Below, in pieces: positions 1-15,469 of a stretch of DNA of 43,637 nt; position 1 is the stretch's first letter, and the number at the start of each line of letters is the position of its first letter. Below the pieces are notes generated by a model. That model saw nothing but the letters and a program-made list of their open reading frames with translations. It was not told where the DNA came from and did not search any database. This DNA comes from Candidatus Dadabacteria bacterium (GTDB taxonomy: Bacteria; Desulfobacterota_D; UBA1144; Nemesobacterales; Nemesobacteraceae): the NCBI GenBank assembly GCA_026705445.1, contig JAPPAR010000001.1:72030-115666 (forward strand). Direction: 5' to 3'. A program made the translations under genes and the position numbers.

Positions 1-2
1 GG

Positions 3-740
3 CGCCTATTCACAACGCTGAATAAGACTACAAAACCTGTATCAAAGGGTGGAATTATTGCTTTGGATGAAGATGATGTTATGGCTATCTGCGTTCGACG
101 TCTTATAGAAGAGACAGATTTATTTTCTGGTAAACGCATAGCATTTGTGGCGACCAATAATATGCCGGTGACAAATGTATCAAGTTTAACAACTATCGGA
201 AATTTATACGACATACTGACAATATTGTTCTCAGTTGCTAAATCCTCACTGAAAAAACCAAAGACAGGTCTACAGAGAGTACGCCCGGATGATGAGAAAC
301 TTGATTTATATTTCGAATTTTCAAAAGATTTCTTCGTTCAATTATCCAGAAGCTTACGTGAGCTAAATGAATTTTTTGGTGCTAGCAGTACAACCAAAAT
401 TGTTAAGAAGTATCGTGGAAATCACGGAGGAAGTATGCTGTTTAGACCTATAGGGCTAGAAATTTTTGTGCGTATCGTAGCACGATTGACGGAAGACATG
501 TCTCTTTCCAATGCGATAAAGTTAGCTGCGAAACTTCCTCGTGACCTTAGCAAAGTCCCATACAAAGGGTTGATGTGGGATGTCAATACCAAAAGAATTC
601 TTAATTCCCACAGAGTGACGCTTCGTGAAATCTTACTTTATATGGTTGGGGTCTCAAAAATATCGGATGAAGATTTGCTGGAAAGATATCGTAAAGAGAT
701 TGGAAATGAGAGGGCAAAGTTGCCCACTGTTATAAAATAG
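3..740 (+). CDS. DGQHR/DndB-family protein, 5'-truncated by the window edge
   Basis: The frame is open to the left edge: upstream of the first TTG (position 63) it reads RLFTTLNKTTKPVSKGGIIA without a stop, so the gene starts outside the window and TTG63 is not the real start. The segments L-F-T-x-L-N-K, K-P-V-S-K, A-L-D-E-D-D and L-F-R-P-I-G-L resemble the second half of DGQHR-domain proteins, the family containing DndB, the repressor of dnd phosphorothioation operons. The DGQHR motif itself would lie off-window, so the family call rests on the C-terminal half only. It is AT-rich like the ssp genes and convergent with them. By analogy it may regulate or tune phosphorothioation; this is inference. 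Another DGQHR-family defence accessory is also possible. Confidence 0.65.
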   Translation, partial: RLFTTLNKTTKPVSKGGIIALDEDDVMAICVRRLIEETDLFSGKRIAFVATNNMPVTNVSSLTTIGNLYDILTILFSVAKSSLKKPKTGLQRVRPDDEKLDLYFEFSKDFFVQLSRSLRELNEFFGASSTTKIVKKYRGNHGGSMLFRPIGLEIFVRIVARLTEDMSLSNAIKLAAKLPRDLSKVPYKGLMWDVNTKRILNSHRVTLREILLYMVGVSKISDEDLLERYRKEIGNERAKLPTVIK

Positions 741-942
741 CATTCAGGGAACATTTTGGTTTCTTAAGGCTTCGTCAAACTTGCACTAGAGATTCTAGGT
801 GAGTACTGCATTTTTATCCTTTGTCATCTCAAAGACTTTTGGTAGCTCTGTCACTACAAGACCTTTTGGAGTTATCATTTTTGATCAATTCTATTTAGTT
901 GGAACACCGACAGAATAGCCTATGTAATGTAAATGAAGCCGA

Positions 943-1848
943 TTAAATCCTTTTGGCTTTAATGAGTTTTATCGAGTCTTGTGTCGTTTGGTATTCTGTT
1001 GGAAGAAAGTACGTGAACCAACGTTCAAGTATCTTAAGAACATCGCGGGGTTTGTGCTCTTTAACATTAACACCGATTTTGATAAGCAAATCGCTGAGCG
1101 TATCTTCAGTCATTTGTCCTTCCTCATTAATATGTTCAATTACTCGACTAACAAGAGGAGTTTGGGTGATTGTAGCAGCAACCCACGCTCGAAAGCCTTC
1201 CTCATCCATTCCTGAAACGATACCTATTTGTGCAAGGTCATTCCGCATCGTCTGTTGAGCAGAACGACTGATATCATCGTTGCCACAGTACATTGAATAG
1301 AGTTCTTCGGGATTTCTGACACGTGGAACCCAATTAGGAGGTAGTATCCCCATGTTTGTTTCTGGTGTTATAGAAGGTAGTTTACGGAGTTTGTCAAGTA
1401 AACCCTCAAGACGATTGCGTTGTTCCTCTGTAGCACGCACTGCTCCAGCAAGCAATGTTCCCTCAAACTTGACGATTTGATCAACAGTTCGGGGGACTGG
1501 TGTTAGTAGTTCTAAGTTTGCAGGTGTTTTCCAACCAAGTGCGGTGAGAGTTACGTTAGCCGATCCGATGAGGCACATATCATCTGCGGAAAAGAATTTG
1601 GCGTGCAGATCATGTCGTAAGTACAATGGTATAGATCTCGATTCAGCCAAGTCGTAGATCCCTAAGTCTGAAGTTCCCGCAAGTAGGTCTGCTAAGCGCC
1701 ACCGTGTAACAACTATAGTTTTTGTACCGATTGGAATACTGTCAAGGAGTCGAGAAAATGCCTCGGATCGTATGAATGGTGCTACAATTAACACGTTTTG
1801 TTGAGCACCATTTAGGAGCGAAGAGAGTTCGTCTCCCAAAGTTTTCAT
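943..1848 (-). CDS. Phospholipase D-like nuclease, last gene of the SspFGH-type module
   Basis: A 301-residue protein with one HKD motif near the N-terminus: H82-A-K84, D90, then I-G-S-A-N at 94-98. PLD-superfamily nucleases with one HKD usually dimerise to make a single active site. The C-terminal two thirds have no motif I recognise. A longer reading starts at 1890, but the ATG at 1848 overlaps the upstream stop as ATGA, which signals translational coupling, so I use it. It is the third of three overlapping genes (helicase, GHKL ATPase, PLD) downstream of sspD. It is the most likely DNA-cutting component of the restriction module. By order it may correspond to SspH, but I could not verify the letter. 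Confidence 0.75.
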   Translation of the reverse strand: MKTLGDELSSLLNGAQQNVLIVAPFIRSEAFSRLLDSIPIGTKTIVVTRWRLADLLAGTSDLGIYDLAESRSIPLYLRHDLHAKFFSADDMCLIGSANVTLTALGWKTPANLELLTPVPRTVDQIVKFEGTLLAGAVRATEEQRNRLEGLLDKLRKLPSITPETNMGILPPNWVPRVRNPEELYSMYCGNDDISRSAQQTMRNDLAQIGIVSGMDEEGFRAWVAATITQTPLVSRVIEHINEEGQMTEDTLSDLLIKIGVNVKEHKPRDVLKILERWFTYFLPTEYQTTQDSIKLIKAKRI

Positions 1849-3719
1849 GTTTCGATTACCTTTAAGAATTTGCGAGCTTCTCTCCCCCAATCCATTCGAA
1901 TATCCTCAAGTCTTTCTTTGATTTCAGATGGAACCTTATCTTCGTGACGGGCCCAAGCGATCAAAAGCATTTTGAGTGTGAACTCAGCCTTGCGGAGGCG
2001 TTCAACAAGTTCTTCGGAAGATTGGTCTTCAATTTCAGCGGTTAATACCTGAATAAGGTGTTTATGGACCGGATGCTGGTCATTCAACCATATTTCCAGC
2101 ACATCGTTGACCGACTCGACATCGAAAAAGGCATCCTGATGACCGAGGGTAACCGCTTTTATGAGTACACGGCGACCGCCACGAACAGTTTCTTCTGCCC
2201 ATTCGTAAGCAGTTTTATCGCCTACTCTGACTTGCTTGGTTGACTCAACGATCTGTTGAATTTTTTCTTCTTCATTTGTCTCAGGGGCCTTATCGCTATC
2301 TCCAGTGTCACCTTTTTGCATCTGCTCATTTATGACTTTCGTCGCAACATCTTCCACTTCTTCACCAGTTTGTGGATGTCGAGTTTGTGGACCCGTACCA
2401 AGCATTATCATTCTGCGCTCTCTTCTCATCTGTGCAATCTGTTTATCAATCCAAATCCATATCTCAAGAAGATGGCCCATAGGGTCGGATGTTTCTTTAA
2501 GTCGTTCAGAGAACTCGCCGAATGTCTCTCCAGGATTGGACCACTCGTTCCAATCGAATCCGGCACCTTTAACGAATGTATGAGCGTGTTGTTTGTTATT
2601 TACAACTCCGAATATTTCATCAAGAATAGGATCGAACTCCACCTCTACTGACCACCAACGTCCCTCCGGTTCGTAGTTATTTACCCAAGCTGTACTCAGT
2701 TCAAGTTCACGCCGGGCCCGAACAATCGATACTCCTTTGTTACGAGCAGCATGCTTGCCCCATGGTGCATCTCCGGCCTTGGAGTAAGATCTCGGCCACT
2801 GAACCTCGGACTTCTTCTCATTAATTGCGTCTGGACGTGCCATAGTACAACGTACATGGACTTCCCCTTGGGTGTTATTATTTTTGATCGACCATGTTTT
2901 TTCGTTGAATAATTGGAACATGGATTTATCTTGGAATGGCTCAGGTGTTGAAGAAGGGCTCATCAGGTAAAGCGGGTCGTTGGGAAAACACTTCCCTTCC
3001 TGTTCAATGGCCAAGTGGGGGTCTTTGTCAGAAGCAAGAATTAGCTTAATCGTAACCGGCCTTTCGTGATCTGTGAGAAACTTACGGTAGATACGGCCAC
3101 ATAGGTCTGCTGTTCGCTCAATGGTTTTCGCTCCACCGCGCCACTGAACTCGATCAAGTTTGCTCCATACGACTAAGGTTCCGGTTGTTTCAGAGGTTAT
3201 TGCTACAACCTCTTTCCACTGTTCTGGAACTGAAGAAGAGGTTGATGTGGGCACTTCCTGCTGTCCAGTAGATTTGATTTCGTCTAGGTCGAGATAGCAA
3301 TGGAAAGCGTTGTCAGCACCGTTTTGCCATGTCCATACATCCACACGCCGACACTGCGAAATCGAGGACTGTGGAAGTCCCACGCCAAAGCGACCTATCC
3401 CCCTTTTTTGACGATTTAGACGGCGGGTTCCATCGCCAAATTTCAAAGCGCGTCTTAATGTTGTACTATCCATCCCCTCACCATTATCGGCAACAGCGAT
3501 TTCGCTTACTTGAGGTCGCGCATAGGGCTTTTCTGGGTCCGATAGCTTTTCAACAGCTATAATCTCTACTAGATCGGCTTTAGCTTCGACAGAATTATCG
3601 ATGAGTTCCGCAAGTGCGTGATCGGTGTCCTTATAACCACTATCGCGCATTGCTTCAATTGTCAGTTCCGCCGAAACAATCGAAAAATCAAATTCTTGTT
3701 GAGTTAGTTTAGAATCCAT
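1845..3719 (-). CDS. GHKL (Hsp90/MutL/MORC-like) ATPase of the SspFGH-type module
   Basis: A 624-residue protein with an N-terminal GHKL ATPase fold. The N box is E38-L-I-D-N42, the second motif is D78-N-G-E-G82, and the glycine-rich lid is G-I-G-R-F-G-V-G at 107-114. All three motifs are intact, so ATP binding is expected. The rest is long and charged, with a Gly/Glu/Thr-rich linker after about residue 440, and shows no recognised catalytic domain. The start is set at ATG 3719, which overlaps the helicase stop as TAATG; an ATG five codons earlier (3734) is possible. The overlaps on both sides suggest stoichiometric expression with the helicase and the PLD nuclease. GHKL ATPases often act as DNA clamps or gates, so a DNA-sensing role is plausible inference. 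Confidence 0.78.
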   Translation of the reverse strand: MDSKLTQQEFDFSIVSAELTIEAMRDSGYKDTDHALAELIDNSVEAKADLVEIIAVEKLSDPEKPYARPQVSEIAVADNGEGMDSTTLRRALKFGDGTRRLNRQKRGIGRFGVGLPQSSISQCRRVDVWTWQNGADNAFHCYLDLDEIKSTGQQEVPTSTSSSVPEQWKEVVAITSETTGTLVVWSKLDRVQWRGGAKTIERTADLCGRIYRKFLTDHERPVTIKLILASDKDPHLAIEQEGKCFPNDPLYLMSPSSTPEPFQDKSMFQLFNEKTWSIKNNNTQGEVHVRCTMARPDAINEKKSEVQWPRSYSKAGDAPWGKHAARNKGVSIVRARRELELSTAWVNNYEPEGRWWSVEVEFDPILDEIFGVVNNKQHAHTFVKGAGFDWNEWSNPGETFGEFSERLKETSDPMGHLLEIWIWIDKQIAQMRRERRMIMLGTGPQTRHPQTGEEVEDVATKVINEQMQKGDTGDSDKAPETNEEEKIQQIVESTKQVRVGDKTAYEWAEETVRGGRRVLIKAVTLGHQDAFFDVESVNDVLEIWLNDQHPVHKHLIQVLTAEIEDQSSEELVERLRKAEFTLKMLLIAWARHEDKVPSEIKERLEDIRMDWGREARKFLKVIET

Positions 3720-5335
3720 TATGCTACGTTCCATACATCCTCCCAGTTCATGAAGGCTTCAGCGACATCGCCGAAACCCGGCAAGTTAGTGTCAACTACC
3801 GTAACTACTTTACAGTGTTTTGTACCCCCCGCTTTAGGTCCTCTAATTACCCGGCCTACCATTTGGCTGTACAACACCAAAGATTTTGTTGGACGAGCAA
3901 TCAACGCAGCACTTGCTGCCGGTGCGTCAAAGCCCGTTGTAAGTACACCGTAATTGATTAATATTCGGTGGGGACCACCGGGTCGCTTGAATCTTTGAAT
4001 CACATGTTTCCGCTTCCAGGAATCAGTTTTGGCGGTAACTGCGTCTGCTTTGAGTCCCATGCCTCTACAAACGCTTGCCAGAAGCAATGCGTTATCGACC
4101 GAGGCTGCGAAAACGAGTATCCGTGAATGAGTCTCTACAAGTTCCAGAAGACATTGAATAATGCGTAGATTACGTTGTTCATCCTCGCCAAATCGTGCGG
4201 CAAAGTCGTCAGAAATGTCCAATGCTTTTGATATTTCCGCTAGATCTTCGGTAGAGAGCTGGAGCCCTGGTTCAACATTGAGAAGAGAGAAATCAACTTC
4301 GGCGAGGTAGCCTTCATCGGTAAGGTGTTTAATTGGGTTAGATCCGTTAAAACTAATCATCACTTTATTTCCACAAAACAACTCCGCTACAGCGGTATCT
4401 ATATTTGGATCTCCCCATGTTCGTCCAGGCGTTGCACTCAATCCAAGGAGCGGTGTCTTGGGGTTTCGGCTAACAACTGTCTCGATAATATCTCGGTAAG
4501 TTGTGGCTACCGCTTGGTGTGCCTCATCAAATACTACCATAGTTGTCCGATCACCAAGACTCCATAGTTTCTTGCGTTCTTTTCCATAGGAATGCAGTTT
4601 AGCCAAGCCCGCAATAACCATACCATCTGTAATTTTATCAATCTGTGGGTTATGACTTGACCAGAATCGCAAACAATCAACTTGCCGATCTCCCAAAGCC
4701 CTCCAAGTCAATTCGAATTCTGTCGCCGCTTGTTCCAGAAGTTCACGAGTTGCTGCTAACCAGAGCACCAGACCTTTGGGACGGGTACGAAGGTGGGAAG
4801 CAACAATACTCATTGCCGTCCGTGTTTTCCCAGTACCTGTTGGGAGGTGTAGCATTGCGCGGCCTTCCTCAAAATATAGATATCGCTCAATATCGCTTGC
4901 GGCTCGTTTCTGGTGAGGAAATAATCCTCTTTCGGGCAACACGGTTTTAGCTGATTCGGAAATAGTAGTCATTTGATTAGCAATCGTTGTGAATCCAAAA
5001 AATCCCAAAAGATTTCGGCGTAAGGACTGCTCTAGCTTGTCTTTCTGTCGTAACTGATTGATGCTTATCCCGATTCGATCCTCTAGTTCACCGATTTTGG
5101 ATTGTGGTACAGCATTCAATAGAATTTCTCGTCTTTGAGTATCATTTATGACTAGCTCAAGAGAGAGAGTTCTACTAAGAGTTTCTACACGTTTTGAGCT
5201 ATTGATGCGTCCAGGGTCGATTGCATTGATTAGGTTGAATGCCCCGGTGGGTAGAAGCTGCGCAGCATGAAAATCATCTAGTTTCTCACAAATCTGAGAT
5301 GGTTGAACTCCTGGTAATTCTGTGGAAACAGTCAT
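3719..5335 (-). CDS. DEAD/DEAH-box helicase of the SspFGH-type module
   Basis: A 538-residue superfamily 2 helicase. About 135 N-terminal residues precede the motor and show no known domain. Motif I is P-T-G-T-G-K-T at 165-171, motif II is D-E-A-H at 270-273, motif III is S-A-T at 300-302, and motif VI is Q-M-V-G-R-V-I-R-G in the C-terminal RecA lobe. All motor motifs are intact. It is the first gene after a 214-bp gap downstream of sspD that contains a candidate promoter, and its stop overlaps the next ATG. It probably provides ATP-driven DNA translocation for the restriction module. By order it may be SspF, but that letter is unverified. Confidence 0.8.
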   Translation of the reverse strand: MTVSTELPGVQPSQICEKLDDFHAAQLLPTGAFNLINAIDPGRINSSKRVETLSRTLSLELVINDTQRREILLNAVPQSKIGELEDRIGISINQLRQKDKLEQSLRRNLLGFFGFTTIANQMTTISESAKTVLPERGLFPHQKRAASDIERYLYFEEGRAMLHLPTGTGKTRTAMSIVASHLRTRPKGLVLWLAATRELLEQAATEFELTWRALGDRQVDCLRFWSSHNPQIDKITDGMVIAGLAKLHSYGKERKKLWSLGDRTTMVVFDEAHQAVATTYRDIIETVVSRNPKTPLLGLSATPGRTWGDPNIDTAVAELFCGNKVMISFNGSNPIKHLTDEGYLAEVDFSLLNVEPGLQLSTEDLAEISKALDISDDFAARFGEDEQRNLRIIQCLLELVETHSRILVFAASVDNALLLASVCRGMGLKADAVTAKTDSWKRKHVIQRFKRPGGPHRILINYGVLTTGFDAPAASAALIARPTKSLVLYSQMVGRVIRGPKAGGTKHCKVVTVVDTNLPGFGDVAEAFMNWEDVWNVA

Positions 5336-5388
5336 AACTATTTGTTCGGATTTGCTACATTACATAGATAAAGGGATTAACCTCGGAA

Positions 5389-5417
5389 AACATAATTGAG
5401 TTAATGGATTTTTTCAA
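5389..5417 (-). promoter_or_regulatory. Candidate promoter for the helicase-GHKL-PLD operon
   Basis: Read on the minus strand, a TTGAAA box (5412-5417) is followed after 17 bp by TATGTT (5389-5394), about 50 bp upstream of the helicase ATG. It lies in the only sizeable gap inside the locus. It suggests that the restriction module can be transcribed separately from the modification module. Pattern match only. Confidence 0.45.
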
Positions 5418-5433
5418 GATATACAAAGAAGCA

Positions 5434-5457
5434 AGTCTGGTGTCTCTAACTCAGACT
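5434..5457. repeat. Inverted repeat in the sspD-helicase gap
   Basis: Perfect 6-bp arms AGTCTG and CAGACT flank a 12-base spacer, just upstream of the candidate promoter. It could be an operator or a weak terminator behind sspD. No U-run of terminator quality follows on the minus strand, so an operator is the more likely reading, if it is functional at all. Confidence 0.35.
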
Positions 5458-5549
5458 GGTAGCGAATAATATTTGTAATACCATTGGGGATTATGGGTTA
5501 GGCTTTTAGTTTTAGAGAATAAAAATTATGAAGAAATATACTTGTGTAG

Positions 5550-6389
5550 TTACTTGTGGCAGACAATGCACGACGCAGCTACTTCTGGAACTCCATATAT
5601 TTCGTCAATCTCTATACATTCAAGGCCTTCATGGAGCGGGTTTCTTTGTTTGCGCCTTTTCTCTCTTTCAACCCGTTTGTTATAGTCTCTTTTTATTTCT
5701 TCCATTCGCTTTGGGTGCTCAAGTTCCGTAAGAGACTCGTTCTCACTCCAAGTAAAAGGTGAACCATGTTGTAAAGCGGTTTTTTCATAACGTTTTGCTT
5801 CTTCAAAGGCTTCCGGATGCTCATGTTTTAGTCTTACCCACTCGATTTTCTGCTGAAAGAAGCAAAATGTACAACCACTCCGCGAACGCCAACGATAATA
5901 GCTAGGAAGTCCAAGACCCGAGGATTCAAGTAGGTTAATCACCCCAGCTTTGTCAATTGCATTTTCTCTAAAAGGAAATTTGATCTGAAGATTAGCATGA
6001 GTGGTTTGCATGCCTAGTCGTTCCGGCTCATCGGCCCTGATGGCAATATAGCTGAAGACTTTCACCCCAGATTCCAGATCATTCTTAATCCATTGCTCAA
6101 ATGGTCTTAGCTTGAGTTGGCGTGTACACCACCGAGAGCGTGCCGAGGGAAGATAGTTGCCGTATTGATGAAGCCAGAAATCAAAATCTCGATCTGGGTT
6201 AAGTCTTTCTATAGGTTTCCCCAAAAACCCTTCAATGTGTCCGAGAAATTCATAAACCTCCGGTAGTTCTTTGCCCGTATCAGTAAAGAAGTAGTGAATA
6301 TTAAGATCGGGGTAATTTTGCCGCATAAATACAGCTAGTGCTGCACTGTCACGGCCTCCAGATAAACCTAAAACATGTTTTTCTTTCAC
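5550..6389 (-). CDS. sspD: SspD-like PP-loop ATP pyrophosphatase (DNA phosphorothioation)
   Basis: A 279-residue member of the PAPS reductase / PP-loop superfamily. The pyrophosphatase loop S-G-G-R-D-S sits at 10-15. Cysteines C88, C173, C176, C274 and C277 could carry an iron-sulfur cluster and transfer sulfur. In Ssp systems this protein activates DNA with ATP and passes on sulfur supplied by SspA. Its short length matches SspD better than the much longer DndC. It starts with GTG at 6389, 20 bases after the sspC stop, and is the last gene of the A-B-C-D run. Its GC content is lower than that of the housekeeping genes to the right, consistent with transfer of the whole cassette. Confidence 0.82.
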   Translation of the reverse strand: MKEKHVLGLSGGRDSAALAVFMRQNYPDLNIHYFFTDTGKELPEVYEFLGHIEGFLGKPIERLNPDRDFDFWLHQYGNYLPSARSRWCTRQLKLRPFEQWIKNDLESGVKVFSYIAIRADEPERLGMQTTHANLQIKFPFRENAIDKAGVINLLESSGLGLPSYYRWRSRSGCTFCFFQQKIEWVRLKHEHPEAFEEAKRYEKTALQHGSPFTWSENESLTELEHPKRMEEIKRDYNKRVEREKRRKQRNPLHEGLECIEIDEIYGVPEVAASCIVCHK

Positions 6390-6409
6390 TGTGTGTTTTT
6401 CCTAAATAT

Positions 6410-9400
6410 TTATTTCTCTATTGATATATGTTTTAACGTTTCCGCTAAAGCGGCTAATTTCTGTTTGTTGTTAATACCGTTTTTATTGAGAATGGATTCT
6501 ATATCTCGTGCCAACATTAAGATTTCTTTTTTTTCATCTTCGGTGATATCAAAAGTCTCAATCATAGTATAGCCGTTTTCTCCTGTACCGAGCATTAAGG
6601 CTAAGGCTTCAGAAGTCGGATTTCGCTTTTTTAACTGTGCCAACATTTCCGCCTGACGGAACTTAAGAGTAAAGTTTGCAATCTCGAGCGCGGCGGCTTT
6701 AGGGTCATTATCAGACCAATCACGAACTGGCTTGTTGATTGCCAAGCTTGCGATTGATTCCATATCTTCTAGAGCATCGGAGAATTCTTCAAGTCTTCCC
6801 ACGAATGCGTCAAGACGAAAGTTTCCGGTTATGCCGCGAATAATTTTCGCCCGCCTGTGCAAGCTTTCTAGGTTTAGTTTTTTTTGCCCTAGTCCTTCAA
6901 GCATGTTTTTGCGTAGACTCGCTACCATTTTCGGGTATGCGTCTTCGAGTTCTTTCAGTGTGTCTTTGATGAATACGCCGAAGTGCCCATAGGACTCCTT
7001 CTCATGAAGCGGATTTCCTTGAAGCTTGGCATCCTCGAATATAATTGGCAAATCCACAAACAATGCCTGAAGAGGGTCATTGGCTGATAAGAGCACGCCT
7101 CGTACCTTTCGGGCTTCATCAGAAATTGAAGATGCTCTTTTTGTCCATGTGGGAAGTTTGAATGCAAACCGGACTAAGGCCCTTGCAACCTCAAGCGGTT
7201 TTTTGGGAACTGAATTGTCGCTGGTTTGATTGGCTACATCCCAGAGATACTCAAGTAACCTCTCGTTACGTTCTCCTAGGTCAACCCAACGCAGCTGAAT
7301 TGTGCTGTTTTTTTGCAAAAGATGGTCTACTACCAATTCGTTTATTTCCGTCTGGAATATGCCTTCGTTATAGACTGCGACCGATGTACGGTTTGTCATT
7401 ACAAAGGCCATGGTGAGAACAGGAAGTACCCCGCGACGTATACCAAACGGAGGGGATGTCCAGTGCTTATATATTTTCGAGACAGAAACGATTTGGTTTT
7501 CTTTAAGAAGCTTTTCGGTTTCTTTCCAAAGTTCAAAAACCCCTTTGGTCTCCTTATTTTGCGATAAAGGCTTAAGAAATCCATAAGCGTCGTTTTTTGT
7601 CTTGCCGTGGAGTTCTAGGGCTTCAAGAATGCTTTTATATATTCCTAGTTCTGAGGGGAACCCCTTTATGTCGAGATTTTCTTGATCGGGATGTTTAACC
7701 ATGCTGTAGAGCAGTTTTCGTATGGCTGCTTGTCCATTTCCCGAGGGTTTTTCCCGGTTAACTAACTCCGTACGAATCTTTGGCGCATGTGGAAATGTTT
7801 TGTATGCTAGGTTTGAGGCAAAGACGGACAAAGAAGATGTTGTTTTCCTTTGCTGCAGACGTCCTTCTATGAACCATCTAGTTTGATTAAGGGAAGTTTT
7901 TAGAATGGTCTGCAGTTGTTCTTTTACAATGGTGATTCTTGCCTCGATCTCTCGCCTTGCCACGGAATCACCTTCAAGTTCGGGATTGTTTCTTTTGATA
8001 TCATGCAAGGCGCTTAATTCTTTGCCTAAATCGTTTATGCTTTTGTATTTAGGGCTGAATCCTACAGCAACCGGATAACCGCTGACAACCGACTTAGACG
8101 CTTCTCTGCAAATGGCTTTTATGTTTTCCATGTCATAATCTTCAGATGGAATTACTAGAAGGAATGTTCCCGCCATTCCATCGGCCGGTCGGAAGTTTTT
8201 TGCTAAATCGTGCACTTTTTCGGCCGACACGATTTCTACTTTGAACCACCTGAGAGTACCGATTTCGTGATAATGCTTTTTGGCTATAATGGGACGCATT
8301 TGAACTAGATTGCCAAGTTGTTCTATATCTAATTCTCTTACGATAAGTTCTTTTTGAAGCGAGCCTTCAATGTCAAAATCACTGCCCGCATATATGGCCC
8401 ATGAATTAAAATGTTTTCTGAATATTACGGCTGACCATCTTTCTACATCCTTAAGTGCTTTTTCTATATCGCTTTCTCTAGCTTCTGCAACGCAGGCTTT
8501 TAAGACTTCATTTTCCGGCATCAGTCCGGATCCGTGGCGGAACATCTCGACAACCGCAATGGTTTTAGCAAGTTTTGCGTGTAGTGAGTCGCCCCTAGCT
8601 TCACAAAGCGCTATTGACTCTAGAGCCTGAGCCCACCTGTGACTGTCTGTAGATTCCATAATTGCCGATTCAAGGTTAACTCTCAGATAATTCCACAAGC
8701 GCCACGGTTCATATGTAGTTCCATTGACTTCGGTTGATTTTAGGAAATTTTGAAAACCTTCTGGTTCACTTGATCCCAGAAAACCAAATACGCTTCTTTC
8801 ATTCTGTCCGAATCGCCGTCGCGACAGGGGACCAAGCAATACGGCCGTTGCGGGATGAATGGGCCAGCAAGAATCAAGACAAGCAGCAAAATCAGATGGA
8901 ATGCCAGCCCGCCTGTTTCTTATAGAGTTTGCTATGACCTTCGCTGTTGAAAGACTTTCAGGGTGTTTCAAATCTGTATCTATTGCTTTGCCTATCAAGT
9001 CAACTACTTCTTCAACCGCAGTAACGAGAGGGATATCGACATAACGCCCCTGTACTTTAGCCCATTCCTTGCGCGCTTTTTCTCCAAGGCGGGAGGCGTA
9101 TTGTTCAAATGACTGATGAAGAATTCCCAATACTACAAGGTGCCCCTTGGTGCGGCTTGCTGACTCAGCGAGTTCTTGGAAAAAGTGAATATCTCCTCCA
9201 TGCCGGGTAGCTTCTTCGAGGTATTTACCCATCTCATCTATTACTAGCAGGACTCCATTGCCGGGGCGCTCTTCCGCTTTTTCCCGAAGAAATTTTATTA
9301 CGTCTCTTGCTGATTTCTCAGTTTGGTTTTGTTTTCTAGTCTGAAAGAGATTTTTTCTGAGATCGTTTACTAAATCACCTCTGTGCCCCACCAACGGAAT

Positions 9401-9730
9401 AACGAGCCAGCCCGATTCATCTGACGGGAAAGCTTTCTCAAAGTAGGGAAGCTCTTTTGTTAATTTCTTAGCTTGGCATCTAATAGGGTTTTTAGTAACA
9501 GAAGCACATAAAACCAAGGCTAGGCTTGATTTGCCCGCACCATAGGGCCCCGTGCAGGTAAATGCCCGGCGGTTGGATTCCGCAATCATCTGGGCCATTC
9601 TTTGCAGTGCATACTTGGCTGAATCGTGAAAGACGAATCCGTCAAGGGCTTCAGGAGTCTCTAGATCAGTATCAATGCGTGCAGACTGCTGAAAGGGTCT
9701 GGCTATCTTGATTTTTTCGAAAAGCAGCAT
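6410..9730 (-). CDS. sspC: SspC-like large P-loop ATPase (DNA phosphorothioation)
   Basis: A 1106-residue protein with a Walker A motif, G-P-Y-G-A-G-K-S at 61-68, and a Walker B, V-L-L-V-I-D-E-M-G-K-Y at 160-170. The remainder is long, mainly helical and charged, with no second ATPase motif that I can see. Position between sspB and sspD and the ATPase signature identify it as SspC, the ATPase needed with SspB and SspD for single-stranded phosphorothioation. It begins 11 bases after the sspB stop. A BREX BrxC-like ATPase is a structural alternative, but no BREX partner genes are present. The gene is uninterrupted. Confidence 0.75.
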   Translation of the reverse strand: MLLFEKIKIARPFQQSARIDTDLETPEALDGFVFHDSAKYALQRMAQMIAESNRRAFTCTGPYGAGKSSLALVLCASVTKNPIRCQAKKLTKELPYFEKAFPSDESGWLVIPLVGHRGDLVNDLRKNLFQTRKQNQTEKSARDVIKFLREKAEERPGNGVLLVIDEMGKYLEEATRHGGDIHFFQELAESASRTKGHLVVLGILHQSFEQYASRLGEKARKEWAKVQGRYVDIPLVTAVEEVVDLIGKAIDTDLKHPESLSTAKVIANSIRNRRAGIPSDFAACLDSCWPIHPATAVLLGPLSRRRFGQNERSVFGFLGSSEPEGFQNFLKSTEVNGTTYEPWRLWNYLRVNLESAIMESTDSHRWAQALESIALCEARGDSLHAKLAKTIAVVEMFRHGSGLMPENEVLKACVAEARESDIEKALKDVERWSAVIFRKHFNSWAIYAGSDFDIEGSLQKELIVRELDIEQLGNLVQMRPIIAKKHYHEIGTLRWFKVEIVSAEKVHDLAKNFRPADGMAGTFLLVIPSEDYDMENIKAICREASKSVVSGYPVAVGFSPKYKSINDLGKELSALHDIKRNNPELEGDSVARREIEARITIVKEQLQTILKTSLNQTRWFIEGRLQQRKTTSSLSVFASNLAYKTFPHAPKIRTELVNREKPSGNGQAAIRKLLYSMVKHPDQENLDIKGFPSELGIYKSILEALELHGKTKNDAYGFLKPLSQNKETKGVFELWKETEKLLKENQIVSVSKIYKHWTSPPFGIRRGVLPVLTMAFVMTNRTSVAVYNEGIFQTEINELVVDHLLQKNSTIQLRWVDLGERNERLLEYLWDVANQTSDNSVPKKPLEVARALVRFAFKLPTWTKRASSISDEARKVRGVLLSANDPLQALFVDLPIIFEDAKLQGNPLHEKESYGHFGVFIKDTLKELEDAYPKMVASLRKNMLEGLGQKKLNLESLHRRAKIIRGITGNFRLDAFVGRLEEFSDALEDMESIASLAINKPVRDWSDNDPKAAALEIANFTLKFRQAEMLAQLKKRNPTSEALALMLGTGENGYTMIETFDITEDEKKEILMLARDIESILNKNGINNKQKLAALAETLKHISIEK

Positions 9731-9741
9731 TTCACTCTAAA

Positions 9742-10671
9742 TCAATTGTCAGTATAAGAAAGATCAAGGAGACGCATTGATTCTATGTTCTCTTTTGCCT
9801 TAGCTACGTTTCTTATTCCCGAAGTATCGGTCCACTGAAAGCGCCCACCTGAACTTTCTCCTATCTTTACAAGTCGTTCAACTAGAGATTGTTCATCAAG
9901 CTTGAAGACTCGTCCGGGCGAACCAGGAGCATAGGTAAGAAGTTCTACCGAAGCGAAATTCTGGTTAGGTATCTCAGCTTGCCAAAATTCATTCAGGGAA
10001 TAGAGAAAGACACCTTCGGGCAGGTTCGGTTTCGGTCCATAGTTAAACTCAAACATATGAGACCCTACTGCGTTGATTAGTTCTAATTCTGACAGAACAG
10101 ATTCTATCGAGTCTTCAGAAAACTTTTCATCTCCTTGATGCACGTAGCTTCTGAGGAAGCAGTCGACATCTCTTTTGATGGTTGTCTCGGATGTACGTTT
10201 CCACTTCCGGTTTTCACATAGATTTTGTATGGATTTAACAATGTCCTCGCGCCCGAATTTCCTTTCGGAAAAATAGTTGAAGGCATAGTACCAAGTCGAG
10301 GTCCTTCCCCATTGTCCGGCTACCATCCAATGTATTAGCCACAAAGTCGCTTCTTTTTCCATAAAAGGGTCGCGACCGGTTTTGGGATTAAAAAGAAATT
10401 CGCCAATACTAGTTGGCTTAAATGATCCGTTCTTGTGTTCTATGATTTTACAAGCGAGGGACCAATGGCGAATTGAATTTACCATGTTTTTTCCCACACC
10501 GAAGTTTACTATGGCGTCGGGATCGGAGAACGGGTTTTTCCTGTGATTTTCTTCACTGAGATCGGCAACTTTTTCGTAAGCCTTGCATAACCAAAGATAT
10601 CTAAGCGGAAAGGTCTCGTGACCTGTAAAATGTCCTTTGTTTTTTTCGTCTGCTAGGGGTCCTGTGTACAC
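9742..10671 (-). CDS. sspB: SspB-like DUF4007 protein (phosphorothioation nickase family)
   Basis: A 309-residue protein with the family signature G-H-E-T-F-P-L-R-Y-L-W at residues 17-27, followed by an F-G-V-G-K-N-M-V-N-S-I-R-H-W segment. DUF4007 proteins include SspB, reported as a DNA nickase that opens the strand for sulfur insertion. The ORF begins with GTG at 10671, and no clear Shine-Dalgarno precedes it, so the exact start is uncertain by several codons. It is flanked by sspA 70 bases upstream and sspC 11 bases downstream on the same strand, the order expected for an Ssp modification module. Confidence 0.8.
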   Translation of the reverse strand: MYTGPLADEKNKGHFTGHETFPLRYLWLCKAYEKVADLSEENHRKNPFSDPDAIVNFGVGKNMVNSIRHWSLACKIIEHKNGSFKPTSIGEFLFNPKTGRDPFMEKEATLWLIHWMVAGQWGRTSTWYYAFNYFSERKFGREDIVKSIQNLCENRKWKRTSETTIKRDVDCFLRSYVHQGDEKFSEDSIESVLSELELINAVGSHMFEFNYGPKPNLPEGVFLYSLNEFWQAEIPNQNFASVELLTYAPGSPGRVFKLDEQSLVERLVKIGESSGGRFQWTDTSGIRNVAKAKENIESMRLLDLSYTDN

Positions 10672-10740
10672 AAAAATAGCCTGACTGGATAGATTATCCA
10701 GTTTATACCCTACATTCTGTGCAACGGAAACTCAAGACTG

Positions 10741-11898
10741 TTAAGAATTGGAGGAAATAGCGCAATTTCTAATTTGGATAGCTTTTTCAGAAATCAGGTC
10801 TATGGCACGATTAACTTCTTCGAGCGAGGTAAACCTGCCGAAGCCGAGACGAATAGAGCAGTTTATTTCATCTATACTAAGCCCTAAAGCAGCGAGCACG
10901 TAGGAAGGCTCGACAATACCGGCATTACAGGCGGCTCCGGTTGAGAAGGCAACTTTATCTTGGAGCATGGTAACGAGTGCATCTGAATCAACGCCGGGGA
11001 GTTGTATGTTAAGATTGCCGGGAATTCTTTGGTTAAGGTCTCCGTTAATTACCAAACCTGGAAAATGAGTACGCAGTTTGTCTATCAAAGCGTTTCGGAG
11101 CAACAAATTGTGTGTTCGGTCTTTTTCAATTTCTTCATCAGCGATTCTGCAGGCTTCTCCTAGTCCTGCGCAAAGAAATGCGGGTACTGTGCCGGCACGT
11201 AAATTGTTTTGCTGTGCTCCTCCGAAAATAATCGGTTCAATTTTTGAAGAATAGTGGTGAGATACGTACAGTGCTCCTATACCCTTTGGACCGTAAACCT
11301 TATGGCCGGATATGCTGAGTAGGTCAATTTTCATTTCTTTAACATTTATTGGAACCTTTCCTACTGCCTGTGCCGCGTCTACATGAAACGCAATGCCTTT
11401 CTTATTGCATAGTTCACCGATTTCTCTAATCGGCTGAATGGTTCCGATCTCGTTATTGACTAGCATGACGGAAACAATGACGGTGTCCTTGGTAAGAGTG
11501 GATTCTATCTTTTTAATGTCAACGATCCCGTTTTTCTCCACTGGAACCACATCAACTAGGCACCCATATTTCCTCATGGCGCGTGCCGTGTTCAACACGC
11601 ACTTATGCTCGATTGAACTTATAACTAAGTGTTTCGATCTAGATTTGTTATTGCGCAGAAGACCTTGAATGGCCAAATTGTTTGATTCGGTAGCTCCAGA
11701 TGTAAAAAGTATTTCTGATGGTTCCGCTCCTATGATTGAGGCAATTAATTCCTGCGCTTTGTCAATTGCTTCGGCGGATTTCCAGCCAAAAATGTGTTCG
11801 GAATGTGGATTGCCAAACCACCGTGTCATGTACGGTTGCATTTTCTCAACAACTCTAGGGTCTAATGGGGATGTAGATTGATAATCAAGAAAGATCAT
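10741..11898 (-). CDS. sspA: Cysteine desulfurase of the Ssp system (SspA/IscS-like)
   Basis: A 385-residue NifS/IscS-type PLP enzyme that strips sulfur from cysteine. The PLP lysine is K200 in S-I-S-G-H-K, the A-T-E-S-N-N segment lies at 69-74, and the persulfide cysteine is C324 in S-T-G-A-A-C. The length is that of full IscS-like enzymes. It is the first gene of the A-B-C-D run and is AT-rich like it, which argues that it belongs to the cassette rather than being the housekeeping desulfurase; no iscU, iscA or hesB is nearby. The start is ATG 11898. The 127-bp upstream gap probably holds the operon promoter, but I see no convincing match. Confidence 0.83.
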   Translation of the reverse strand: MIFLDYQSTSPLDPRVVEKMQPYMTRWFGNPHSEHIFGWKSAEAIDKAQELIASIIGAEPSEILFTSGATESNNLAIQGLLRNNKSRSKHLVISSIEHKCVLNTARAMRKYGCLVDVVPVEKNGIVDIKKIESTLTKDTVIVSVMLVNNEIGTIQPIREIGELCNKKGIAFHVDAAQAVGKVPINVKEMKIDLLSISGHKVYGPKGIGALYVSHHYSSKIEPIIFGGAQQNNLRAGTVPAFLCAGLGEACRIADEEIEKDRTHNLLLRNALIDKLRTHFPGLVINGDLNQRIPGNLNIQLPGVDSDALVTMLQDKVAFSTGAACNAGIVEPSYVLAALGLSIDEINCSIRLGFGRFTSLEEVNRAIDLISEKAIQIRNCAISSNS

Positions 11899-12025
11899 GA
11901 AGAGTTCTAGGTTTTTCTATTTGATTTTATGTTAGCGATTCGGCAAAAGTTTTGACTCTGTTTATAGCAAAGTAAGCTAACCAATTTTTTATTGATATGA
12001 GATAGCAGCGACGGAAATCCCTAGG

Positions 12026-13276
12026 TTAATTCTTGTCTGTCCTTTTACACTGCTTGATTACGACTTGCTCTATGCGTTGCAGTGCCGGATATTCGCCGAA
12101 CTGCTCCTCAAAAAAAGTTCTTGTTAAAATGAGATTCTCAGACAACTGGGCTGCAACCTCCTCGACAAGACCAACCAGGTATCGCGGTCGTATGTCGCAC
12201 TGCCTAGCCATATCTTCCCAATGTTGCTTGAGAATGGCACTAGGATTCCTTTCTTTTCCAACGGACAATGCCAGGTGGTAATCGATTCTATCTATGGCCC
12301 GGGTACACACAAGATCGTAAAAGGGCGCCAGCCGAATCTCTCCATCTGGCGTATGCAGAAGCGATAGATTCTTGGCGTGACCGTCAGAATTGCCCGCAAG
12401 CACGTTGAATATCTGCCAGCGCAGCAGGTGCGGAAGATCCGTGGCCGGATCACTCGATACATTCCGTAGCATCCCGAAGCACTGTGCGAAGGACGGTCCG
12501 CCGTCTTCCTGATATTTTCTTTCATGACCGTACCCAAGCGCTTGGCAGAAATCTTCCTGGTGTGCTCGCAGAACCTCTCCATCGTCGCTTGGGAAGCGGT
12601 CGTAGCGCTGCGTAATCGTGTAATGGATCTTGTTTATGGAACGCAACTCGATGTCGATGACCGGCAGGCCGACGGCACGGGCGAGTAACGTGGTGAAGGT
12701 CTCATAGGCGGGCACGTTACGGTATCCTTCAATCTCAAACTTGAGTATGTGACTCGAAGGTGACTCTCCCTGCGGCAGCAGATATTTTCCTTCCCGCACG
12801 AGAATAGGGAATTTGTTCTGGGCACCGGCCAGTGAGAACCTTGCTCTTTTTTCTTCTGACCAGGAGTACGGCTGTCCGCGTTGAGCTATCAGACCGGCGA
12901 GTTCTTCATCGTCTATAGGGCGATAGCTTTGCTCCACTGAGGGTTGCCGCCCTTCCGGGAGAACGGATAAAGCGCCTGCGCACTCACCGCCTATAGCCCG
13001 CAACAGATTAAAGTCCGTGTCAGATATTTTCAGGTCGCGGACGATGCGCTCCCGAAAACCGCCTTCGGGAAGCAGGTTGGCGAAGAACCTGTGGGCAACG
13101 CCTTCTTCCGCTGTAAATTCCTCGGGACTGAGAGGAAGAGTCTGCGAGATAGCGAATCCCCCGCCCGAGAGCCAGTCGTTATCATAACGAAAGCTTATAT
13201 GGCCGAAGGAATCTCGCCGCAGATGGCCTACCAGCCTGCGCCTGTTCCATATGTTTAGCGCATCGGGGTCACTCAT
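12026..13276 (-). CDS. hipA: HipA-family serine/threonine kinase toxin
   Basis: A 416-residue protein with the HipA architecture: an N-terminal beta subdomain and a kinase core. Visible motifs are S-L-A-G-A-Q at 148-153 (the nucleotide loop), K179 in I-L-K-F-E, R-Y-D-R at 224-227, the catalytic N-S-D-G-H-A-K-N with D298, and the metal-binding A-P-F-Y-D ending at D321. All catalytic residues are present, so it should be an active kinase; HipA of E. coli phosphorylates glutamyl-tRNA synthetase and promotes dormancy. Its start overlaps hipB by 8 bases, a normal antitoxin-toxin arrangement. It is richer in GC than the ssp genes and may have a separate origin. Confidence 0.88.
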   Translation of the reverse strand: MSDPDALNIWNRRRLVGHLRRDSFGHISFRYDNDWLSGGGFAISQTLPLSPEEFTAEEGVAHRFFANLLPEGGFRERIVRDLKISDTDFNLLRAIGGECAGALSVLPEGRQPSVEQSYRPIDDEELAGLIAQRGQPYSWSEEKRARFSLAGAQNKFPILVREGKYLLPQGESPSSHILKFEIEGYRNVPAYETFTTLLARAVGLPVIDIELRSINKIHYTITQRYDRFPSDDGEVLRAHQEDFCQALGYGHERKYQEDGGPSFAQCFGMLRNVSSDPATDLPHLLRWQIFNVLAGNSDGHAKNLSLLHTPDGEIRLAPFYDLVCTRAIDRIDYHLALSVGKERNPSAILKQHWEDMARQCDIRPRYLVGLVEEVAAQLSENLILTRTFFEEQFGEYPALQRIEQVVIKQCKRTDKN

Positions 13277-13553
13277 CGGTTTCTTTTCCGTTCTCCGAAA
13301 TCTTGGATAAGGGTGTTGTCCTGCGAGGCTGGATTACGACTTCAAGTCCGACGGTTTGCAGCGCTTTTAATACTTTGCCGATCTCGGCGGTCTCCTTGCC
13401 CCGCTCGAACTCGGAGAGAAAACGAGGACTCAAGTTTCCTAGTCCGGAAACCGTTTCTAGCGTAAGGCGGCGGTTCTTGCGATGGGCACGGGCTGTACGG
13501 CCCAATTCTTCCGTTGATCGGATGATGCCATATTCTGGGTTTTGTTTTTTCAT
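13269..13553 (-). CDS. hipB: HipB-family HTH antitoxin
   Basis: A 94-residue protein with an N-terminal helix-turn-helix of the Cro/C1 type (residues about 15-70), followed by a short charged tail that could insert into HipA. It neutralises HipA and represses its own operon by binding DNA upstream. Its start, ATG 13553, lies 20 bases from the first operator-like repeat, and its 3' end overlaps hipA by 8 bases. Confidence 0.85.
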   Translation of the reverse strand: MKKQNPEYGIIRSTEELGRTARAHRKNRRLTLETVSGLGNLSPRFLSEFERGKETAEIGKVLKALQTVGLEVVIQPRRTTPLSKISENGKETDE

Positions 13554-13572
13554 TGTATCACCTAAAATATTC

Positions 13573-13683
13573 CTGTACGGTAAAAAATATCATATTGTAC
13601 AGAGAGAGTCAATTAAAAGTTATCGTATGTGACTATATTATTAATAAAAGCTGTTTAATATAATAGATAATCACGTACGATAA
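13573..13683 (-). promoter_or_regulatory. hipBA promoter with four operator-like half-sites
   Basis: On the minus strand, TTGACT (13607-13612) and TATTTT (13584-13589) are spaced by 17 bp. An imperfect 30-bp inverted repeat with CTGTAC/GTACAG ends (13573-13602) overlies the spacer and -10 box. A second pair, TTATCGTATGTGA (13620-13632) and TCACGTACGATAA (13671-13683), is inverted with one mismatch and lies upstream. All four share a TATYGTAYG-like core. This suits autorepression by HipB dimers, possibly with DNA looping. The function is inferred. Confidence 0.6.
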
Positions 13684-13762
13684 AAATAAATCAATATAAT
13701 AATTGGAACTTATCTTTAGACGGTATGTTGAGATAGAGACCGAGTTGAAAGATGTTTTCTTT

Positions 13763-15469
13763 CTACCTCTTTAACTTGTAGCCGGCTTCCACCATGTCCC
13801 AGGTGTCTTTGGTAACGCCCTGTTCGCGAAGCTTGTTCTTCTGAGTTCTCTGCGTGCCGGTTTTGGGGAAGGAATCTACAGACCTTATGAATCTTGGAAT
13901 CATGAAATAAGGCATTCTGGGCTGCAGGTAGTCTATCAGTTCCGGGGGGTCTACCTCTTTTCCTTCCTTCGGAATCACTAGTATCATGAGCTCGTCTTCT
14001 GCGTATTTCCCGGCTTCTGACTTTATGCCTATAGCTGCCGATTCCTCGACATCAGGGTGGGAGTTGACAATTTTCTCCACCTCAAAGGAGCTTATGTTCT
14101 CCCCCCTTCTCCTTATGTAGTCCTTCACCCTGTCGACAAAGTATATGTAGCCGTCTTTGTCCATTCTTCCCGCGTCGCCCGTATGGAACCAGAAGTTCCT
14201 GAAGTCCTCGACGGTCTTCTCTGGCATTTTGTGATAGTAGTGAAGCATCACGTTCGGTATCTTGGGGCGGACTATGATCTCCCCTATGTCCCCCCTAGGC
14301 ACCTCTTCGTCTGTTTCCGGGTCGGCGATCTTTATCTCGTAGTTTGGGGCTTCCTTTCCGCAGGACCCAACCCTGAAGGGCTCTCCCGGTCTCATCCAGG
14401 TGCACTGGCCTATCTCGGTCAGGCCATAGCCTTCCATGAACTTTATCCCGAAGCGCTCCATGAACTCCTCTATCATGTCGTGAGGGGCGGGCGAGCCGAG
14501 AACGAGCTTTATCTTGTGCTGCTTTTCCTCCGGCACGGGAGGGGTGTTCCAGAGAAAATACGACATGGTCCCCACGGTGTTGAACTTTGTCACCCCGTGG
14601 TCTACCATCCATTTCCAGAAGCGGCTTGAGCTGTATCTCTCCTCGACCACCGCTTTTGCTCCCTTTATCAGTGCCGGGTAGACGGTCATCACCATGGCGT
14701 TTGAATGGAAAAGCGGAAGGCACGTGAAGCACACGTCCTGAGAGCCGACATCCATTATCTCGGCGTAGTTCCTAGCGCTGCTGTAATCGGCGGCGCAGGG
14801 TCTCATTACCCCTTTTGAGCGGCCCGTGGTGCCCGACGTGTACATGAGCCTCGCGTAATCCATGAAGGTAACCTCGACGTCCGGCTCCTTGCCCGAACCC
14901 GAGTTTATGAATTCTGAGTAGGAAATCATCTTGCGGAACCTGTATCCGTGTCTTTTAAACTTCTTGCTCCCGCTTCTTGTCCAGACTATGACATGGCGAA
15001 GCTTTGAGAGGTTCTTCGCTATGGGGGGCATCCGGTCTAGGTACTCTTCCGCTATGAAAAGCACCTCGGCATCCGAACTGTCGATTATGTATTCAAGAAA
15101 ATCCATCTTGTAGGCCGTGTTTATGGGTACCATCACGGCTCCCATCTTGAGGATTCCGAACCACGTTATTACGTAGTCGTCGGAGTTCGGCATGTAGACG
15201 GCGACTTTCTTTGCCTTTTCCACCCCGAGGGCGCAAAGGGCGTTTGCCACGCGGTTGGCGAGACGGTTTGTCTGGTAGAAGCTAAGCGGCTTTTTGTATC
15301 CGAACTGAAGAAAGGGCTTTTTGCCCAGTTTTTTCGCCTGTTCGCGAAGCACCTTGGGAAGCACCCAGTTCGACCTGTCTTCCTTGAGGTACCAGTTGAC
15401 GTCGAATTTCCCGTTCTCCCGCTTGTAGGTGACGGGATGCATGAGGTCCTTAGGTTTTTTTCTTGTCAT
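13763..15469 (-). CDS. AMP-dependent acyl-CoA synthetase (FadD/CaiC-like)
   Basis: A 568-residue adenylate-forming enzyme that activates a carboxylic acid as acyl-AMP and transfers it to CoA. The phosphate loop Y-T-S-G-T-T-G-R-S-K-G is at 210-220. It is followed by G-Y-G-L-T-E, W-F-H-T-G-D, the hinge D-R-V-K-D-Y-I-R-R-R-G-E-N, and a C-terminal K-T-G-T-Q-R-T-Q-K-N-K-L. All core motifs are present. The substrate cannot be read from sequence; medium- or long-chain fatty acids or a carnitine-like acid are possible. A good Shine-Dalgarno (GGAGAG) precedes ATG 15469. It lies 59 bases downstream of tatC on the same strand and may be co-transcribed with it. GC content is high, in contrast to the adjacent hipBA-ssp block. 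Confidence 0.85.
   Translation of the reverse strand: MTRKKPKDLMHPVTYKRENGKFDVNWYLKEDRSNWVLPKVLREQAKKLGKKPFLQFGYKKPLSFYQTNRLANRVANALCALGVEKAKKVAVYMPNSDDYVITWFGILKMGAVMVPINTAYKMDFLEYIIDSSDAEVLFIAEEYLDRMPPIAKNLSKLRHVIVWTRSGSKKFKRHGYRFRKMISYSEFINSGSGKEPDVEVTFMDYARLMYTSGTTGRSKGVMRPCAADYSSARNYAEIMDVGSQDVCFTCLPLFHSNAMVMTVYPALIKGAKAVVEERYSSSRFWKWMVDHGVTKFNTVGTMSYFLWNTPPVPEEKQHKIKLVLGSPAPHDMIEEFMERFGIKFMEGYGLTEIGQCTWMRPGEPFRVGSCGKEAPNYEIKIADPETDEEVPRGDIGEIIVRPKIPNVMLHYYHKMPEKTVEDFRNFWFHTGDAGRMDKDGYIYFVDRVKDYIRRRGENISSFEVEKIVNSHPDVEESAAIGIKSEAGKYAEDELMILVIPKEGKEVDPPELIDYLQPRMPYFMIPRFIRSVDSFPKTGTQRTQKNKLREQGVTKDTWDMVEAGYKLKR

Follow-up and report, generated by a model that had tools for sequence, protein, structure and literature searches.

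In Ssp systems, sulfur is mobilized by SspA and activated by SspD, SspB and SspC carry out selection and nicking, and the product is a single-stranded phosphorothioate (PT) at 5'-CCA-3' in host DNA. A complete set of these four genes is found in a 43,637-nt stretch of contig JAPPAR010000001.1 of a Candidatus Dadabacteria bacterium (positions 72,030 to 115,666; hereafter the window), adjoined by a trio encoding a superfamily 2 (SF2) helicase, a GHKL ATPase and a predicted phospholipase D (PLD)-family nuclease. We consider the locus to be an SspABCD defense island in which the trio acts as a third Ssp restriction module, apart from SspE and SspFGH, and place the probability of this reading at roughly 0.7.

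Several described systems resemble the locus in part. The SspABCD-SspFGH system of Vibrio anguillarum FF-93 has a like modification module and a three-gene effector alongside it (PMC8092258). Its effectors, the Walker-A protein SspF, SspG and the FtsK-like SspH, are unrelated to the helicase, ATPase and nuclease of the trio, but both are likely to follow the principle of damaging PT-free DNA. SspABCD-SspE also shares the modification module; its effector consists of one DUF262 GTPase-HNH protein, SspE, whose action requires PT. DndCDEA-PbeABCD is likewise PT-based, and its effectors include an HKD nuclease and an SF2 helicase; it differs in the HKD-helicase fusion PbeA, the ABC-type ATPase PbeC, the DndE-like PbeD and the double-stranded PT placed by Dnd. 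Outside PT-based systems, the restriction-modification operons of the MORC/paraMORC type similarly join a GHKL ATPase of MORC-like fold to an SF2 helicase and a nuclease, and in a few of them the N-terminus of the helicase carries an HKD domain (PMC2292703). In those operons modification is left to DNA methylases, whereas the window locus relies on phosphorothioation, encodes a separate PLD protein and belongs to a distinct, Ssp-linked GHKL clade. Among solved structures, the PLD model is matched best by SauUSI, an ATP-dependent restriction endonuclease. SauUSI holds its PLD and helicase parts within one polypeptide and, to our knowledge, has neither a GHKL subunit nor PT genes.

The Modification Module and the Trio

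The profile search bears out the SspABCD identity proposed by an earlier sequence-only reading of the window: each of the four proteins matches its PADLOC profile, and the Pfam results concur for SspA, SspB and SspD (Table 1). As judged from sequence, the PT half of the locus is thus firmly assigned. The seven genes which that reading had placed in one direction at 943-11898 are all intact open reading frames on the minus strand, and the active-site motifs it could read are indeed intact, with the catalytic motifs of helicase, GHKL ATPase and PLD protein kept across homologues. Dozens of unrelated genomes contain this gene set as well, which places it far beyond chance. The helicase and GHKL genes share 16 bp and the GHKL and PLD genes are joined by an ATGA overlap, which suggests co-transcription of the three as a single unit; a gap of 214 bp separates them from sspD.

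The helicase motifs GTGKT, DEAH and QMxGR are conserved across the aligned homologues, and the nearest solved relative by profile is RadD. In the GHKL protein the N-box (E43/N47), the D83xGxGM motif and the G-rich loop are invariant among 51 homologues, and the best fold matches of its AlphaFold model (pLDDT 83) are SMCHD1, HSP90, MORC2 and MutL. Its GHKL motifs and S5 domain, its MORC/MutL-like fold and its SF2 helicase and nuclease partners are those of a MORC/paraMORC-type GHKL protein, and the S5 stretch GVSIVRARREL comes near, yet falls short of a full match to, the MORC motif GhXhhpXXRhl. The PLD protein displays the HxK(x)4D...GSxN motif and the PLD fold of its family; H82/K84 (HxK) and S96/N98 are invariant in 50 homologues, and Asp89 is the majority residue without being invariant. 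By sequence this protein is recognized weakly, Pfam PLDc_2 remaining below its cut-off. The assignment is nevertheless clear because the fold search confirms it, the AlphaFold model (pLDDT 94) matching SauUSI best and Nuc next. No full-length match to any of the trio proteins was found in PADLOC-DB 2.0.0 or NCBIfam 20.0.

The sequence-only reading had named the three effectors SspF, SspG and SspH, a naming which did not survive. SspF carries a Walker A motif, SspG has no recognized homology and the C-terminus of SspH is FtsK/SpoIIIE-like (PMC8092258). None of the trio proteins matches a PADLOC profile for SspF, SspG or SspH, whereas the genuine proteins of the Agrobacterium plasmid L011, serving as positive control, reach 787, 726 and 2427 bits. 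BLASTP similarity to these L011 proteins was likewise absent in the pairings helicase/SspF, GHKL/SspG and PLD/SspH. As L011 was retrieved with the GHKL query and holds a related helicase-GHKL pair beside its genuine SspF, SspG and SspH, the view that the trio is SspFGH, which has in its favor that three genes adjoin sspBCD, retains hardly any probability. A variant of PbeABCD is very improbable as well: the helicase matches the PADLOC PbeA profile at 86 bits, in the helicase region only, PbeB, PbeC and PbeD are unmatched, the PLD protein is not fused to the helicase, and the modification module is Ssp rather than Dnd.

Other candidates were also rejected. Among the ten window proteins scanned there was no match to SspE or DUF262 (positive controls for the SspE profile were L064 with 910 bits and L112 with 1113 bits), and DndF, DndG and DndH were unmatched in the window proteins with PADLOC and NCBIfam. 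For DISARM (DrmA, DrmB, DrmC) the sole match was a weak one to DrmC (19 bits with PADLOC; 19.6 with NCBIfam against a cut-off of 133). For MZA, the MzaB N-terminus alone was matched (86 bits against a cut-off of 850, NCBIfam), and the other Mza genes were unmatched.

Linkage to sspBCD, Nuclease Slot and Transfer

The distribution of the trio was followed in the closest 80 of 299 GHKL homologue loci from GTDB species genomes, annotated with HMMs built for this analysis. The helicase is present in 79 of these loci, the PLD gene in 71, SspC in 73, SspD in 72 and SspB in 68, and SspB, SspC or SspD in 75; SspF and SspH were annotated in none of the 80. The five loci lacking SspB, SspC and SspD (L056, L070, L074, L080 and L085) are all shorter than 14 kb; L056 and L085 include little upstream sequence, and L074 extends 9.9 kb upstream of the GHKL gene and only 2 kb downstream. 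Where at least 8 kb are available on both sides, at least two of SspB, SspC and SspD are present in 47 of 48 loci. The coupling of SspABCD to a helicase-GHKL-PLD set, as put forward by the sequence-only reading, therefore stands, and co-occurrence with sspBCD is near universal. Judging by record titles, the loci come from about a dozen phyla, among them Dadabacteria, Acidobacteriota, Pseudomonadota, Bacteroidota/Rhodothermota, Gemmatimonadota and Actinomycetota, and further Verrucomicrobiota, Myxococcota, Cyanobacteriota, Bacillota, Armatimonadota and Planctomycetota, as well as a Treponema plasmid. Three of the four matches in the viral collection (L117, L118 and L119, IMG/VR contigs filed as viral) carry a full SspABCD together with the trio.

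Plasmids show the same linkage. DUF4007 occurs in 96 of 72,556 plasmids overall and in all 13 of those whose GHKL homologue is at least 34% identical. Five plasmid homologues with at most about 30% identity were also examined. In four of these, the 8 kb read to either side contain no sspBCD, and one of the four is located in a restriction-modification context (dcm/vsr). The remaining one, carried by the SC52 plasmid, is part of a GHKL/helicase/PLD set which is divergent and lies some 7 kb away from sspDCB. The boundary of the linkage by GHKL identity is thus fairly sharp. Among the 60 DUF4007 plasmids of those listed, the trio is found in 12, SspF in 28 and both in 2, where one SspF match is a fragment. 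On account of these locus and plasmid counts, the GHKL clade can be regarded as an Ssp specialist.

Several loci without the PLD gene encode other nucleases. In the Nostoc loci L060 and L064 a full SspE lies between SspD and the helicase, that of L060 being identified by its GmrSD domains and a custom HMM. In L051, L078 and L088 the helicase is shortened and HNH proteins are encoded in the cluster, with HNH domains confirmed in one or two proteins each; L077 encodes a protein similar to these. A predicted endonuclease follows the GHKL gene in the place of PLD in L011, and the Aminobacter plasmid L122 combines the helicase-GHKL pair with a candidate endonuclease in that place and an SspF fragment. 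This pattern supports, without proving, the view that PLD is an exchangeable cutting subunit.

The two halves of the locus are each inherited as a unit and have partly separate histories. In the 53 complete loci, pairwise distances correlate at 0.81-0.91 within SspA-D and at 0.77-0.85 within the trio, and the correlations between the two are lower (0.52-0.67). In the closest group the GHKL distance is 0.38-0.50, yet SspB and SspC are 1.0-2.3 apart, as far as in unrelated loci; the trio has therefore moved between different SspABCD sets. The nearest GHKL relative is encoded by another Candidatus Dadabacteria locus (L015, 89% identity). The GHKL proteins of L016-L024, which are 61-70% identical to that of the window, come from metagenome-assembled genomes of Terriglobia, Rhodobacteraceae, Rhodothermales, Gemmatimonadales, Acidimicrobiia, Gammaproteobacteria and Verrucomicrobiae, identities which suggest that the trio has passed between phyla. 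Bin names suggest that several of the close loci derive from sponge metagenomes, in which PT genes are reported to be enriched (PMC5099237), and transfer possibly took place among co-resident sponge symbionts. Taken broadly, we hold it somewhat probable that a core made up of a RadD-like helicase and a MORC-like GHKL clamp, combined with a nuclease that can be exchanged, constitutes an undescribed third class of Ssp restriction module, has spread through about 12 phyla, has been shuffled among SspABCD lineages and serves as partner for part of the "orphan" sspBCD clusters.

Proposed Function and Rival Explanations

As in characterized Ssp systems, SspA, SspB, SspC and SspD would mark host DNA with PT. 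The RadD-like SF2 helicase most likely translocates on DNA or opens it, the MORC-like GHKL ATPase would close as an ATP-driven clamp on the DNA handled by the helicase, and the PLD nuclease, expected to be a dimer like other single-HKD enzymes, would cut the clamped DNA, the host being spared by its PT marks. We infer that helicase, GHKL ATPase and PLD protein form one complex and that the PLD protein cuts DNA. The least certain step is the choice of target, for which we lean towards unmodified rather than modified DNA because solitary trios are very rare, as one would expect if the trio harmed a host without PT. The PT-requiring PbeAC behaves differently, since only 42% of its occurrences lie beside dndCD, with solitary ones making up 320 of 553 (PMC6459918).

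That trios hardly ever occur by themselves, set against this figure, also speaks against a PT-sensing effector, that is, a trio switched on by PT-marked self DNA which then blocks or nicks phage DNA. Such a mode of action is unlikely but has precedent: SspE and PbeABCD are existing PT-requiring effectors, and PbeA itself joins an HKD domain to an SF2 helicase. The best fold match of the PLD protein points the same way, SauUSI being a modification-dependent enzyme. It is improbable that the trio is an independent system of paraMORC type and a chance neighbor of sspABCD within a defense island. MORC/paraMORC GHKL proteins, SF2 helicases and nucleases are indeed known from methylation-based restriction-modification operons (PMC2292703), and the insertion site of the island is also used by other PT genes. 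However, the trio and SspABCD stay together although they are found in several relative orientations, and the linkage in the well-flanked loci extends over about a dozen phyla.

The interpretation of the trio as a restriction module directed against unmodified DNA is weakened by several points. The linkage would look alike if the trio needed PT for its activity, as SspE does, and the loci sampled are those closest to the query GHKL protein. Some of the cyanobacterial loci in which the helicase is short or the PLD gene is missing may have decayed rather than swapped their nuclease, and the open-licence literature searched yielded no experiment on the trio.

GHKL-helicase-nuclease operons with methylases are already known (PMC2292703), and more Ssp partners have been anticipated: about 84% of 2,678 sspBCD clusters have neither SspE nor SspFGH, and further restriction partners were asked about (PMC8092258). 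The trio is a candidate partner for such clusters, and one with a testable gene set. No description of it as an Ssp effector was found in the open-licence literature on phosphorothioate with GHKL, HATPase, MORC, PLD or DUF4007. If confirmed, it would bring a MORC-like ATPase into a PT-based immune system and offer a simple model for clamps that handle epigenetic marks.

Genomic Island and Neighboring Genes

The locus is part of an island of 14,936 bp (C1:70857-85792) which lies between ppx/gppA and an AMP-dependent ligase gene and replaces 51 bp of the empty-site relative G025, whose homology ends at C1:70856 and resumes at C1:85793. Besides the Ssp genes and the trio (Table 1), the island contains the toxin-antitoxin pair HipBA at its right edge and, upstream of the window, a gene for a 175-aa protein and the start of a DndB-like gene.

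Table 1. Features of the window, with positions counted from its first nucleotide.
Feature	Position	Strand	Evidence and remarks
SspA-type cysteine desulfurase, 385 aa	10741-11898	minus	PADLOC SspA 491 bits, DndA 484 bits; Pfam Aminotran_5 6.7e-83
SspB (DUF4007), 309 aa, DNA-binding/nicking component	9742-10671	minus	PADLOC SspB 355 bits; PF13182 2.8e-86
SspC AAA+/P-loop ATPase (SspC/BrxC-type), 1106 aa	6410-9730	minus	PADLOC SspC 1265 bits; Walker A GPYGAGKSS read in sequence
SspD PP-loop sulfurtransferase (PAPS-reductase type), 279 aa	5550-6389	minus	PADLOC SspD 445 bits; PP-loop SGGRDS read in sequence
SF2 helicase/translocase of the trio, 538 aa	3719-5335	minus	Pfam ResIII, DEAD, Helicase_C; RadD 2.1e-41
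GHKL (MORC/paraMORC-like) ATPase of the trio, 629 aa	1845-3734	minus	HATPase_c_3 9.2e-23; AlphaFold fold matches
Predicted single-HKD PLD-family nuclease of the trio, 301 aa	943-1848	minus	PLDc_2 weak; AlphaFold fold matches
DndB-like (DGQHR) gene, 3' part, accessory	1-740	plus	convergent with the trio; PF14072 1.2e-25; PADLOC DndB 44 bits
HipA-family toxin, island gene, outside the PT system	12026-13276	minus	HipA_C, Couple_hipA
HipB-like HTH antitoxin, island gene	13269-13553	minus	TIGR03070 couple_hipB 6.8e-11
Share of the 14.9-kb genomic island within the window	1-13763		homology break against empty-site relative G025

Comparison of the orthologous site in the Dadabacteria relatives G015-G027 revealed varied PT genes between ppx/gppA and the ligase gene, which makes this a site repeatedly occupied by such genes. 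In the same genus, the insert of G020 at this site comprises SspE, a cysteine desulfurase and a gene with weak resemblance to SspD/BrxP, and that of G027 comprises DndC and a DndA-type desulfurase; both inserts also encode a protein of 416-417 aa which shares its weak PADLOC match with the HipA protein of the window. SspABCD adjoins the ligase gene in G021 and G022, and the site is empty in G017 as it is in G025.

The complete DndB-like gene encodes 419 aa (L014:9511-10770, plus strand), begins some 520 bp to the left of the window and has homologues in 12 of the 80 trio loci. The 175-aa protein, encoded on the same strand within L014:8987-10770, has no Pfam match and shows an alignment-invariant GIY...Y.G...R...E...N pattern of the GIY-YIG kind. 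The two genes occur as a pair between sspD and the helicase gene in L054, L058, L059 and L063, and beside sspD in L006 and L106. Outside the island, a gene for a ClpP-like serine protease of the SDH type (L014:6273-7181, plus strand) adjoins ppx/gppA.

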